From: Hyphomicrobiales bacterium
Lineage (GTDB): Bacteria > Pseudomonadota > Alphaproteobacteria > Rhizobiales > Rhizobiaceae
DNA length: 51,564 nt
Reading direction: 5' to 3'
Assembly: GCA_900467685.1 (NCBI GenBank)
Contig: UBQX01000023.1
Span: 1-51,564, forward strand
Shown here: in pieces, positions 13,481 to 46,302 of the stretch
Position numbering within the stretch: the first letter of the stretch is position 1
Layout of the letters: each line of letters begins with the position of its first letter
Position numbers and translations under genes: made by a program
The notes under the pieces: model-generated
Told to the model about the DNA's origin: nothing
Seen by the model: only the letters and a program-made list of their open reading frames with translations
Database searches by the model: none

Positions 13481-13504
13481 AATAATCCTGCTGGACGGTT
13501 TATT
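13481..13504. promoter_or_regulatory. 24-bp cluster operator, site A (ferredoxin)
   Basis: Perfect arms AATAA and TTATT separated by 14 bases (TCCTGCTGGACGGT). It lies about 100 bp upstream of the ferredoxin start. One of five copies with both arms intact. Confidence 0.7.
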
Positions 13505-13577
13505 ATATGTGTACGGCCTTGTGAAGCGTTGTTTTTGTTTTCGCAAGGGTCGCGGCCCAAAACCGGGAAAGACCGCG

Positions 13578-14438
13578 TCAGAAACCCGCGACTGCCTTCA
13601 TCGCCTGACCACCTCCGGGTTGCCGCGCCCAGAGGTCCAGACTGCCACCATCGGCTTTTGCTTCGAGCGTGAAGGGGGCTCCTTCGATCAACGGGCTCAC
13701 CCCCTTGAAGGAAAACGTCTTGAGCGGCTTCTGCGCGATCCGGCGTGCAAACTGCGCCAGGAGCGACGCGGTCAGCGGTCCATGAACGACAAGCCCGCCA
13801 TATCCCTCAACCCGCGTCGCATAGTCCCGATCGTAGTGGATCCGGTGGGCGTTATAGGTCAAAGCCGAGTAGCGAAACAGCATGACCGGGTTCGGGGCGA
13901 TGCTTTCCCGATGCTCTACGCCTTCGGGACAGGCTGGTCCGGTGGCCTGCGACTGCGAACTGCTTGCGGCCTCGCGATAAACGATATCCTGCTCTTCGCT
14001 CAGGCAAAGCTGGCCATCCTGAATGAGGTCGTGCGCGACCCGCACGATGCCCAGCTGTCCTGTGCTGCCCTGCTTGATATCCACAGACACAACGCGGGAA
14101 GTCTTTTCCGCATCACGCCCCGCCACGAGCGGGCGATGAAACGTCAGGCGGCTGCCGCCCCACATCCGGCGCGGAAGGGCGATCGGCGGGAGAAAGTCGC
14201 CGAGTTCGGGGTGTCCGTCGGTTCCGATCCGTTCCGGCGGGACGGACGGGTTGAAGAAGAACCAATGCCAAAGCTCCATCAGCGTGTCACCCTCTGCGAC
14301 ATCCGGGTCCAGGCTGTAGAAGTCGCGGATACGTCTGACCTGAGGAAGGGAGATCGTGTCGCTGACACGCTGGGTGTTGCCGACCCAAGTCTTGAGCTTG
14401 TCGATATCGAGCGTTCTTGCCGTCAATTCGTCCTCCAT
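13578..14438 (-). CDS. Double hot-dog acyl-CoA hydratase (itaconyl/mesaconyl-CoA hydratase-like)
   Basis: A 286-residue protein with an N-terminal FAS1/HTD2-like hot-dog domain (LWHWFFFNPSVP...ALPRRMWGGSRLTFHRPL) and a C-terminal catalytic MaoC domain (LFRYSALTYNAHRIHYDRDYA...GYGGLVVHGPL, with the His/Asp pair). The layout matches itaconyl-CoA hydratase and mesaconyl-C4-CoA hydratase, which act on branched unsaturated dicarboxylic acyl-CoAs. The ATG at 14438 follows a GGAAG and gives the family length; upstream in-frame codons lie in the divergent promoter. The true substrate here is unknown. Divergent from the flavoprotein at 14579, with a CCGGATGTCCGG dyad between them. Confidence 0.8.
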   Translation of the reverse strand: MEDELTARTLDIDKLKTWVGNTQRVSDTISLPQVRRIRDFYSLDPDVAEGDTLMELWHWFFFNPSVPPERIGTDGHPELGDFLPPIALPRRMWGGSRLTFHRPLVAGRDAEKTSRVVSVDIKQGSTGQLGIVRVAHDLIQDGQLCLSEEQDIVYREAASSSQSQATGPACPEGVEHRESIAPNPVMLFRYSALTYNAHRIHYDRDYATRVEGYGGLVVHGPLTASLLAQFARRIAQKPLKTFSFKGVSPLIEGAPFTLEAKADGGSLDLWARQPGGGQAMKAVAGF

Positions 14439-14518
14439 TGCTTCCGTCTTTTGGAGCCGTCGCGAGACGCGATCCATCGTGGAGATGCGTCGCAGTCTCG
14501 GGCTTTCTTGCCGATATA

Positions 14519-14546
14519 TTGACCGGATGTCCGGATTATGCAAGAT
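14519..14546. promoter_or_regulatory. Second-class dyad, site L
   Basis: Core CCGGATGTCCGG at 14523-14534, followed by ATTATGCAAGAT. It lies between the divergent hydratase (start 14438) and flavoprotein (start 14579). It matches 22 of 24 positions with the element at 32.9 kb. Confidence 0.6.
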
Positions 14547-14578
14547 CGACCGAGATCTTTTGAGGAGGATTGGAGCAG

Positions 14579-44194: not shown

Positions 44195-44212
44195 AGCGGC
44201 GAGGAGATGATA

Positions 44213-44989
44213 ATGACAACTTCTCTTGTAATGCTTGAAACGAAGGGCGACGTTGCCATCTTGACCCTCAACGACCCCGCCAGTCGCAACGCCATGTCCG
44301 CGGACATGGCGCAACAGCTGCTTGCGGCATTGAAGGCGGCCTCGGGTTCCGCGAAGGCCATCGTGCTTCGCGGGCATGAAAAAGCCTTCTGCTCCGGCGC
44401 CAACCTCTCATCCGACCTCGTCAGCAATGCCGGCGGCATCGATGCCGGCAAGGCGCTGGAGGAGATCTTCAATCCGCTGGTTCTGGCAATCAGGGACCTG
44501 CCTGTTCCGCTCGTCACCGCCGTGCGCGGTGCCGCCGCCGGAGTGGGCGCTTCGCTCGCGCTCATTGGTGACATCATCGTCGCAGGTGAAAGTGCGTATT
44601 TCCTCCTCCCGTTCCGGCATGTCGGGCTTGTTCCCGATGGCGGTGCGCCCTGGTTGATCAGCAAGGCCGTGGGCCGCGTTCGGGCACTCGAAATGATCCT
44701 GCTGGCGGAAAGGATCCCTGCCGCCAAGGCGCATGAATGGGGTCTTGTTACCCGATGCATGTCGGATGATGCCGTTGGCGAGACGGCCATCACACTCGCG
44801 CAAAACATTGCTTCGGGCGCCACCAATGCGATCCGCTTGGCCAGAAAAGCCGTCTGGGCGGCCCAGAGTGTCGACCTGCAGGCCGAGCTCGAACTGGAAA
44901 GAGAACTGCAACGCGAAGCCGGCTACCACCCGAACTTCGTCGAAGGCGTGACGGCTTTCCGAGAAAAGAGAGCCCCGGTCTTCGTATGA
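44213..44989 (+). CDS. Crotonase-family protein
   Basis: A 258-residue crotonase-fold protein resembling PaaG/ECI isomerases: GHEKAFCSGANLSSDL, VRGAAAGVGASLALIGDIIV and PFRHVGLVPDGGAPWLI. The first hydratase Glu is Ser; the second catalytic position is Asp (PDGG), as in PaaG. The start is the ATG at 44213, six bases after GAGGAG; an ATG at 44207 directly abuts that site. Last gene of its operon. It may shift double bonds during beta-oxidation of an unsaturated or cyclic intermediate. Confidence 0.85.
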   Translation: MTTSLVMLETKGDVAILTLNDPASRNAMSADMAQQLLAALKAASGSAKAIVLRGHEKAFCSGANLSSDLVSNAGGIDAGKALEEIFNPLVLAIRDLPVPLVTAVRGAAAGVGASLALIGDIIVAGESAYFLLPFRHVGLVPDGGAPWLISKAVGRVRALEMILLAERIPAAKAHEWGLVTRCMSDDAVGETAITLAQNIASGATNAIRLARKAVWAAQSVDLQAELELERELQREAGYHPNFVEGVTAFREKRAPVFV

Positions 44990-45003
44990 CCGGCCCTCAA
45001 GAT

Positions 45004-45031
45004 ACGACGGCTTCTACCCGACAGCCGTCGT
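45004..45031. terminator. Hairpin at the TetR stop
   Basis: ACGACGGCT and AGCCGTCGT form a 9-bp stem around a 10-base loop, covering the end of the TetR gene (stop at 45014) and lying 15 bases after the convergent crotonase stop. Likely terminator for both directions; no T-run. Confidence 0.5.
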
Positions 45032-45727
45032 GTCGTCCTGAGCCTGAAGTGAGGCCAGCGTTTCGGGTGACGGGGGGGTCGTAATCATACCGACAACGGT
45101 GTCTGCCAGATTTTCCTGCACATAGCTCGCGCCCCAGAGGTTTTTCATGGCCCTCGGATCCTCGCGTGCAGCCTCGCGCGCCGAACCCGTGGTCACGACA
45201 TAGATGAAGGCGAGCATGAGCCTCTGCCGCAAAAGCGCAGGAGGCAGATCCGGCACCATGCGTCTGATATGGGCGAAGCAGCGACGCACGCCTGAGTCAT
45301 AGCCCTGCATGACCGTGAACATGCGTTCGCGATGGTTGAGCAGCATCATGATGACGAAGCGGAAGGAATATTCGTCCATCTCGGAATTCTCGAGATCGAT
45401 CACCGGCACCTGGATCAGGATCTTGACGACGTCGCGGATCGAATTCGGCCCGCCGCTCGCTTCCAGCTCGTCCAGTTTCTGATTGTGAAGCTTGTCGAGC
45501 AGGCTCGCGACATCATGAACCAGCTCGGAAATCAGGCTGTCCTGGGAGCTGAAGTAATAATTCACCGACCCGACATTCTTCTGGCCCGCCGCGCGGGAAA
45601 TCTCGCGCGCCGATACGCCGTCCAGCCCGTTCAACGCGTAGAGCTTCAGCGCAGTCCGCTTGATTTCCTCGCGCGTCCGCTCGCCCCGTGCATATTTTGC
45701 GGTGCTGGATGCCTTCTGGATTTCCAT
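45014..45727 (-). CDS. TetR-family regulator (2)
   Basis: A 237-residue TetR protein. N-terminal helix-turn-helix GVSAREISRAAGQKNVGSVNYYFSSQDSLI (about residues 40-70), large C-terminal ligand domain. The start is taken as ATG at 45727; a TTG at 45736 is in frame. Convergent with the thiolase-fadJ operon. It is a second candidate reader of the dispersed dyads, perhaps of the CCGGACGTCCGG class. No copy of either dyad is found in its own upstream region. Confidence 0.83.
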   Translation of the reverse strand: MEIQKASSTAKYARGERTREEIKRTALKLYALNGLDGVSAREISRAAGQKNVGSVNYYFSSQDSLISELVHDVASLLDKLHNQKLDELEASGGPNSIRDVVKILIQVPVIDLENSEMDEYSFRFVIMMLLNHRERMFTVMQGYDSGVRRCFAHIRRMVPDLPPALLRQRLMLAFIYVVTTGSAREAAREDPRAMKNLWGASYVQENLADTVVGMITTPPSPETLASLQAQDDTTAVG

Positions 45728-46302
45728 GTCTCCCAAATCTCATTTCGAAGGGCTGTGGCCGGCTTCGCACGCGAACGGTCCTTGATCGCGGCGGCGCTTG
45801 CACCTGCCCTTGCTCTCCCATCAAGACCGCGGCAGCCCCTGCATGTCGTCCTTTTAAAGACAGTATCTTAGCAGAAGCAGGCATCGCTTTAGGCCCCCGC
45901 CGCTTCTGAATCCTGGGGATATCATCGCTTCTCCCAGAGTCCGCGCGACATGACCATCAGATGGCGGTTCAGCGAGCACAGCCGGTTTTGAAGGCCTCGT
46001 CAAGTTTAAATATCAGACTGTTTATCCGCTTTTTAATCTTCAGGGTTGCGCGTCTTTCGGACGCCATGGCGTTTATGAGCAAATGATACCGTCGAATGCG
46101 ATCCCCATCGACGGCGGAGGTCCAAAATTAAACGCCATAATTTCATATATTTAATTGATTTTCTGCAGAGGTGACGCAGGTTCGACCTCTCTCTTTCTTA
46201 GGTCAGCCCCGAAGCGCGGGTGATTTGCAAAACGTCAAATTCTTCCTTGAATAATCCATACAGTCGTATTATTAATGAGAAAAGCAAGCCTGGGAGGGGA
46301 CC
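45728..46302. other. Long intergenic stretch with operator K
   Basis: A 575-base gap between the TetR start and ligase 2. It becomes AT-rich from about 46000. Only site K and the ligase promoter are recognised. One short frame near 46097-46150 (AIPIDGGGPKLN, then a stop) resembles the C-terminal end of an SDR and may be a decayed gene fragment. Confidence 0.5.
46250..46273. promoter_or_regulatory. 24-bp cluster operator, site K (ligase 2)
   Basis: Perfect AATAA and TTATT arms with centre TCCATACAGTCGTA. It ends 30 bp upstream of the TTG start of ligase 2, where it would block the promoter or early transcription. Confidence 0.75.

Follow-up and report, generated by a model that had tools for sequence, protein, structure and literature searches.

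A dispersed 24-bp dyad as the predicted operator of a PaaR-like TetR protein in a rare Rieske/CoA catabolic cluster

The closest described counterpart of the system treated here is PaaR of Burkholderia cenocepacia, a TetR-type regulator of a coenzyme A (CoA) thioester pathway. Our own subject is a 24-bp dyad that recurs in the promoter gaps of a catabolic gene cluster in a Hyphomicrobiales bacterium (assembly GCA_900467685.1), together with TetR1 (18206-18811, + strand), the TetR-family gene whose product we propose as its reader; the window, by which we mean the whole stretch of DNA analysed, is 51,564 bp long and is the entire contig UBQX01000023.1 (C16) of a 5.05-Mb genome in 43 contigs. 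In B. cenocepacia, the PaaR operator is given as ACCGACCGGTCGGTT at two promoters (PMC9493321), the paa inverted repeats lie between -10 and -35, and negative control requires both the repeat and the TetR gene (PMC2770484). A pathway 'compound II', taken here to be phenylacetyl-CoA, dissociates PaaR (PMC9493321). For PaaR of Thermus thermophilus (TTHA0973), the palindromes are CNAACGNNCGTTNG (PMC9493321) and AACnAACGTTnGTT (PMC6651687), and the title of a reference names phenylacetyl-CoA as the effector. MbdR of Azoarcus sp. CIB, a TetR repressor of an aromatic CoA pathway, is released by 3-methylbenzoyl-CoA (PMC4424350) and is set apart from the TetR1 system by an operator of the form ATAC-N10-GTAT and an anaerobic pathway.

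The TetR1 system resembles that of B. cenocepacia (PMC2770484, PMC9493321) in its TetR-type regulator, CoA-thioester pathway, ACCG-N6-CGGT core and several dispersed promoters, and at some promoters of the TetR1 cluster the inverted repeat likewise appears to lie between -35 and -10. Unlike PaaR, it has A/T-rich arms that bring the dyad to a length of 24 bp, no fewer than 12 sites, and sites at Rieske, crotonase, acyl-CoA dehydrogenase, thiolase and CoA-ligase genes, with no phenylacetyl-CoA epoxidase (PaaA/PaaC-type) family found in a Pfam scan of 32 cluster proteins. From these sequences, the TetR1 regulon would work like the PaaR regulon yet, by its gene context, would not be that of PaaR. 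TetR1 was 31 and 39% identical to two TetR proteins of paa clusters, B. cenocepacia PaaR itself being outside the comparison. The Paracoccus paa cluster (31%) carries CATTGACCGGCCGGTCGGTTTATG in the paaN/paaG gap. Among the paa genes of Novosphingobium US6-1 (39%) there was only a differently spaced palindrome, ATTAGACCGTCCGGTCAATCAATT, before paaA (score 14.5), so that the comparison with paa clusters was not clean. Three short loci with 31-36% identical TetR relatives (L009-L011) gave no clear counterpart of the dyad beside the TetR gene in a first search for palindrome and core. The Thermus regulator is also of the TetR type; its core differs from the CCG-N6-CGG of TetR1, and its palindromes resemble the dyads of three related clusters (G163, G570 and G420) discussed below. 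The PaaR motif of Corynebacterium is given as ACTNACCGNNCGNNCGGTNAGT, although none of the papers listed by a literature search that included this motif contained it. At the sequence level TetR1 was weakly similar to the solved chains 3ang/3anp (E about 3e-7), which we take to be Thermus FadR, and to KstR2 (4w1u/4w97, E about 1e-5); FadR-type TetR proteins and KstR2 are acyl-CoA binders with different operators.

We consider it highly probable that the dyads of the window are operators of one TetR-family repressor, TetR1, which is released by an acyl-CoA and controls a single Rieske/CoA pathway of patchy distribution. Four things were observed by computation: the motif itself, how nearly it is restricted to this contig, how it is conserved at orthologous promoters, and that it diverges together with the TetR. 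An earlier note on this DNA had proposed a single regulon read by TetR1 and had listed perfect AATAA-N14-TTATT dyads at 13481, 16974, 18054, 26876 and 46250; all five are there, far above the mean of 0.01 (maximum 1) in 100 dinucleotide shuffles of the window. The near copies that it gave, at 23229, 37584, 24099 and 26629, hold up as well: with the CG core added and up to three mismatches allowed these nine places were the ones found, where 0.91 were expected and the largest shuffle count was 4. The dyad at 37584, which had been described as having a 13-base spacer, fits the 24-bp register better, as AATAAT-ACG-N6-CGT-TTATTT. Once the centre is included, the motif becomes AATAA-n-(C/A)CG-N6-CG(G/T)-n-TTATT, that is, a CCG-N6-CGG core with AATAA/TTATT-like arms, 24 bp in all; an ACCG-N6-CGGT-type core is present at the sites, with one CGG replaced by CGT in many. 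The constraint noted on the centre was correctly seen, the core CG (positions 8 and 9) being the most informative part of the comparison matrix in other clusters. The description of A/T arms around N14 as the complete motif had to be corrected, the core being G/C and the arms looser in relatives. With gene starts assigned, by our own reading, from ribosome-binding sites and homology, all nine sites fall in promoter gaps; the site at 16974, for example, stands upstream of the FAD oxidoreductase gene because the TTG-started open reading frame 15615-17081 probably starts near 16931.

Two matrices were used, a first one built from six window sites and a comparison matrix trained on 29 sites outside the window and Thalassospira, from which the scores of single window sites below are taken unless stated. 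With the latter, the nine reported sites all fell inside the top 11 of the window, together with 32915 and 14517, and 36138 came twelfth; the regulon therefore exceeds the nine sites first reported. In 200 mononucleotide-shuffled windows the top score was 22.4 and an average of 1.1 places per window reached 12 or more; nine sites of the real window exceeded that maximum and 24099 equalled it. Of the 24 places scoring at least 8 in the window, one (4468, score 9.8) lay outside 13481-46273, and the weak candidates were at 46012 (16.7), 36004 (13.5) and 18185 (12.2).

Genome scans, run as mismatch patterns, found perfect arms at six places, five in the window and one in a nearly all-A/T stretch of another contig. 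The pattern AATAANNCG-N6-CGNNTTATT with at most one mismatch occurred at five places, all in the window; at two mismatches there were two places in the window and three elsewhere, and with up to three mismatches the count was background (67 places vs 61 for the reversed control). The longer pattern AATAAWCCG-N6-CGGWTTATT, with up to three mismatches, matched eight places, six of them in the window, and its reversed control none. In this mismatch form, the enrichment check that had been suggested for the motif showed it to be nearly confined to this contig and not common in unrelated promoters, and these scans rule it out as a general promoter element. They also bear on whether the arms could be ordinary AT-rich -10 boxes in a GC-rich genome, with an incidental dyad symmetry: the arms do coincide with -10-like hexamers at several sites, but the core CG rather than the arms is most conserved across clusters, and with only two of the eight matches off this contig and none for the reversed pattern we regard such an explanation as extremely improbable. 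Elsewhere in the genome a dyad, AACATACCGTACGAACGGTTTGTT, lies at G000:C7:33479-33502 (L057:9479-9502) between another TetR gene and a carboxyltransferase-domain gene; it has an ACCG-N6-CGGT core, the recognition region of the adjoining TetR (SRGAILHHY) resembles that of TetR1, and it possibly marks a second CoA regulon with the same core.

The dyad was found in nine clusters of eight other genomes that hold a TetR1 ortholog (52-89% identical), many of the sites being at orthologous genes. The orthologs are those of Thalassospira profundimaris (THAL, 89%), Seohaeicola (72%, with a second copy at 74%; clusters SEOH and SEO2), Pseudooceanicola (PSEU, 71%), a Sulfitobacter plasmid (SULF, 67%) and the genomes G513, G616, G262 and G559 (52-67%). 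With the first matrix these nine clusters gave 43 matches of at least 12, where the reversed matrix gave 4 and the control of 60 dinucleotide shuffles about 1.9. The distance from the dyad centre to the first aligned residue of the Rieske alpha subunit was 63 bp in the window, 64 in THAL, 61 in PSEU, 73 in SEO2, 69 in G513 and 100 in G559, and that to TetR1 was 140, 141 and 143 bp in the window, THAL and SEO2, respectively. Other orthologous promoters with a dyad were those of the CoA transferase, crotonase/acyl-CoA dehydrogenase and FAD oxidoreductase genes and, in Thalassospira, of ferredoxin reductase and both CoA ligases. The cluster itself is rare: TetR1 at 60% identity or more was present in 2 of 297 genomes of its own family (the window's own and G262), three more having 31-36% relatives, and a TetR1 match was found in none of five other genomes of its own genus, 5 of 394 in the Pseudooceanicola family, 1 of 29 in the Thalassospira family and 3 of 385 in a class-wide sample, two of these last being just 38-40% identical. 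Thalassospira has matches for 28 window genes at 74-94% identity, plus ferredoxin fragments, and the rare, scattered pattern suggests transfer of a catabolic block. At either end the Thalassospira contig G297:C30 stops in a fragment of a ferredoxin gene (L033 1-190 and the final part of L034). The two fragments are oppositely oriented, which may mean that the ferredoxin gene is repeated or that an inverted repeat surrounds the cluster.

Because most clusters had been found through TetR1, a converse search was run with Rieske alpha. It returned 7 of 394 genomes in the Pseudooceanicola family, namely five with TetR1 (79-87%) plus G570 and G420 (71-73%), and 3 of 297 in the window's own family, namely the window's genome, G262 (80%) and G163 (71%). 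All Rieske relatives of at least 79% identity were in genomes with a TetR1 ortholog, and each of the 10 Rieske loci outside the window had a match of at least 15 within 300 bp before the gene, six of the 10 being absent from the training set of the matrix used. In G163, G570 and G420 the cluster TetR was 35-36% identical to TetR1 and the dyads were of a shifted type; in G570, for example, AACAGAACGAACGTTCGGATAATT precedes the Rieske gene and AATAGTCCGAACGATTGGACTAAT the TetR gene. The dyads of these sister clusters (L079, L080 and L081) are of an AGAACG type near the Thermus PaaR palindrome. Over the residues that we take to form the recognition helix, these three proteins read SKSRLYHYF vs SRGALYHY in all ten TetR1 proteins of at least 52% identity, and two more distant clusters (TetR 39-40% identical, SRGLLYHYF) had a dyad of the CCG-N6-CGT type upstream of a Rieske gene of 67-68% identity. 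By this comparison, regulator and site tend to change together, and this is the strongest argument that the sequences offer for TetR1 as the reader.

Several points weigh against so direct an assignment. The training sites of the comparison matrix were chosen with a matrix seeded on the window, so that the two matrices are not fully independent, and the shuffle control for its scores was mononucleotide. Most comparison clusters were fetched with TetR1 as the query, and its presence there is by selection. Six control loci gave 0-3 matches each (L058 up to 3 in 18 kb), three of the six having been fetched for holding a match, and matches of at least 12 were few in 40 kb for SEOH (4), PSEU (3), G616 (3) and G559 (3); several of the 43 matches, as in G513, lay away from any aligned ortholog, and the Sulfitobacter Rieske promoter scored no higher than 8.7 by the first matrix. 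There are exceptions to the recognition-region rule too: on a Variovorax plasmid (L064 6675-6698) a TetR with SKSRMYHYF adjoins a CCG-containing dyad, AATATTCCGTCTGGAAGGTTTATT, which lies between this 32% identical TetR gene and a MaoC-crotonase-thiolase-ligase operon. In the window's own genome, moreover, the C7 dyad stands beside a different TetR, so that the core alone does not identify the reader; with the Variovorax case, this means that the core and the helix rule do not belong to TetR1 alone.

TetR1 has both PF00440 (TetR_N) and PF17932 (TetR_C_24) above the Pfam cut-off and is, judging from its TetR_C_24 domain, a member of the PaaR-like TetR group. Its own genome holds no close paralog, the next best protein being 25% identical, and a tree of 18 TetR rows grouped nine of the ten TetR1 proteins with high support, G559 falling just outside and a long-branch warning applying elsewhere. 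A match of at least 9.5 in the autoregulatory position, within 330 bp before TetR1, was found in 9 of 10 clusters (window, THAL, SEOH, PSEU, SULF, SEO2, G262, G616 and G559), although in SEOH and PSEU the only such match adjoins the start codon; G513 had only a score of 8.8, about 80 bp away. A site upstream of TetR1 would be expected of a mere target too, and TetR2 (45014-45736, - strand) and TetR3 (49322-50029), on the same contig, also have TetR-family domain matches, so one of these could in principle read the dyad. We consider this improbable: the nine comparison clusters all have dyads, yet at a limit of 42-45% identity and within the stretches fetched TetR2 had a match in Thalassospira only and TetR3 in none; TetR2 is without a convincing site of its own, 46012 lying about 290 bp away; and divergence of the TetR1-type protein coincides with that of the dyad in G163, G570 and G420. 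Motif confinement, the nine clusters with a TetR1 ortholog, the lack of a close paralog and the joint divergence thus lend support to the proposal that a single catabolic regulon is probably read by TetR1.

The dyads are placed where a repressor might act. In the TetR1 promoter of the window the dyad fills the 18-base spacer between TTGAAA and TATTAT; it lies likewise in Thalassospira and, with TTGTCA, in SEO2, and an apparent position between -35 and -10 was also seen at the CoA transferase (CaiB), ferredoxin reductase and ferredoxin genes of the window. Before the Rieske operon a -35-like TTGACA (three clusters) or TTGACT (two) stands 23-24 bp before the dyad. In these five clusters, the ones listed for this promoter, the dyad itself falls on the -10/start region, as it does at the CoA-ligase sites of the window. 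Across 49 hand-listed gene-oriented rows the best -10 started within -15 to +25 of the dyad in 39, a count that the A/T-rich arms themselves bias. Some members of the TetR family activate, and the promoters best guessed for the window's crotonase and acyl-CoA dehydrogenase genes lie clear of the dyad. That TetR1 reads the dyad as an activator or dual regulator seems unlikely all the same, given that several clusters have the dyad across the probable core promoter of TetR1 and of the Rieske operon, as at the B. cenocepacia paa promoters (PMC2770484).

For TetR1 as a repressor, a mechanism can be outlined. We infer physical binding, repression rather than activation and an acyl-CoA ligand; that TetR1 would be an acyl-CoA-released, autoregulated repressor follows from operator placement, the B. 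cenocepacia PaaR parallel and the TetR_C_24 domain. A TetR1 dimer would bind CCG-N6-CGG with its A/T-rich outer arms, and as an AATAA/TTATT arm can double as part of the -10 box, the bound repressor would exclude RNA polymerase. The inducer is likely a CoA thioester made from the pathway substrate by a CoA ligase of the regulon, which on releasing TetR1 would turn on the whole 35-kb Rieske/CoA pathway, TetR1 included.

The proposed regulon extends over 13054-47865 and comprises 18 transcription units, as judged from the order and strand of the genes, 17 of them with a convincing site by our count; the exception is TetR2, and the thiolase-FadB-acyl-CoA dehydrogenase-crotonase genes were counted with the preceding CoA ligase. 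In order of position, the first predicted operator (13481-13504, score 27.0) lies upstream of a 2Fe-2S ferredoxin gene (13054-13383, -), and a newly recognised one (14517-14540, 23.4) lies in the divergent gap between a MaoC/FAS1-like dehydratase gene (-, start about 14477) and an NMO-family flavoprotein gene (+, start about 14579), its counterpart being SULF:18841 in the Sulfitobacter MaoC2/NMO gap. The predicted operator at 16974-16997 precedes the FAD oxidoreductase gene (15615 to about 16931, -; counterpart G297:C30:2188), and that at 18054-18077 lies in the TetR1 promoter, with counterparts before TetR1 elsewhere, and also 146 bp upstream of a nitroreductase gene (17243-17908, -). This nitroreductase gene sits between the FAD oxidoreductase and TetR1 genes, flanked by the near-identical operators 16974 and 18054; in Thalassospira, FAD oxidoreductase and TetR1 share one divergent gap and one operator (G297:C30:2188). 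A weak second dyad (18185-18208), near background in score, overlaps the TetR1 start codon in DNA conserved in Thalassospira, and TetR1 is followed by an alpha/beta hydrolase gene (18832-19713).

The joint highest score (29.0) belongs to the predicted operator at 23229-23252, before the Rieske operon RHD alpha-RHD beta-crotonase-SDR (23178 to 19765, -). The sites at 24099-24122 (22.4), in the divergent gap of a crotonase gene (-, start about 24083) and an acyl-CoA dehydrogenase gene (+, start about 24211), and at 26629-26652 (21.6), upstream of a CoA-transferase III/racemase-type gene (25453 to about 26586, -), are marginal by the arm criterion under which they had been reported, yet both predictions are backed by sites at orthologous genes. 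For the first, THAL, PSEU, SULF and G513 each have a site at the corresponding pair of genes, and SEO2 has one before ACAD1; for the second, sites precede CaiB in THAL, PSEU and SEO2. The predicted operator at 26876-26899 is upstream of the ferredoxin reductase gene (26989-28233, +; counterpart THAL:11132). Another newly recognised predicted site (32915-32938, 24.3) lies in the divergent gap between an SDR-acyl-CoA dehydrogenase-thiolase-CoA-transferase operon (about 32888 to 28292, -) and a hypothetical-MaoC-HpcH-crotonase operon (about 33029 to 35399, +), with counterparts at SDR2 or hyp162 in THAL, SULF, SEOH and G513. A third (36138-36161, 17.2; 7.6 with the first matrix; counterpart THAL:20420) is upstream of a thiolase gene (36216-37454, +) and a DUF2889 gene (-), the latter having a weak candidate of its own at 36004-36027, whose counterpart THAL:20279 scores higher. 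The predicted operator at 37584-37607 (26.2; counterpart THAL:22969) precedes a CoA-ligase gene (37636-39279, +) and presumably also serves, by read-through, the thiolase-FadB-acyl-CoA dehydrogenase-crotonase genes to 44989; that at 46250-46273 (counterpart THAL:31775) precedes the second CoA-ligase gene (46303-47865, +).

Besides electron-transfer proteins and a Rieske oxygenase of two subunits, the products of the regulon include three acyl-CoA dehydrogenases, three thiolases, two CoA ligases and two CoA transferases, as well as FadB, four crotonases encoded on their own, two MaoC-type proteins and an HpcH/HpaI lyase. No NCBIfam name was reached at cut-off for TetR1, Rieske alpha, the CoA-transferase III, the FAD oxidoreductase or the HpcH lyase, the last scoring 150 bits vs the RipC cut-off of 375. 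The closest solved Rieske chains, 9o71 and 7yls/8h2t, match in two separate stretches; we take 7yls/8h2t to be the indole-acetate dioxygenase IadDE. In a reduced cluster (G888) a PF14535-domain ligase gene lies between the Rieske and TetR genes, with a dyad in the gap before the Rieske gene; PF14535 is found in phenylacetate-CoA ligases, and this hints at an aromatic acid as the substrate. We suggest, quite tentatively, that an aromatic or alicyclic acid, as its CoA thioester, is what TetR1 responds to, in an undescribed aerobic hybrid pathway in which the Rieske oxygenase, instead of the Paa/Box epoxidases, oxidises the CoA-activated ring. Crotonase- and hydrolase-type steps would then open the ring, since a Pfam scan limited to 32 proteins of the cluster, with no search of the remaining genome, gave no ring-cleavage dioxygenase family.

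Directly upstream of the cluster, at 7782-12835, are genes for a LysR regulator, a FUSC-family exporter and an HlyD protein, an arrangement presumably like that of aromatic-acid efflux systems, with no dyad match of at least 8 in that stretch. Farther upstream, at 422-6020, an Lrp/AsnC-type regulator gene and an operon for a 2-oxoacid dehydrogenase complex (E1 alpha, transketolase-type E1 beta, E2 and E3) are transcribed divergently.

This regulon, the pathway and the motif strings were not found in the literature searched, from which subscription journals were mostly missing, so that this is weak evidence of novelty. The shared operator ties about 30 otherwise generic catabolic genes to one pathway and names TetR1 as its candidate regulator. 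It also offers a way to the substrate, which would be whatever compound, as a CoA thioester, takes TetR1 off the dyad, and since the cluster is rare and scattered over several bacterial groups, the operator could help to locate the pathway elsewhere and to set its limits. The joint divergence of TetR and dyad would, in addition, provide a small natural data set on operator choice by PaaR-like TetR proteins.

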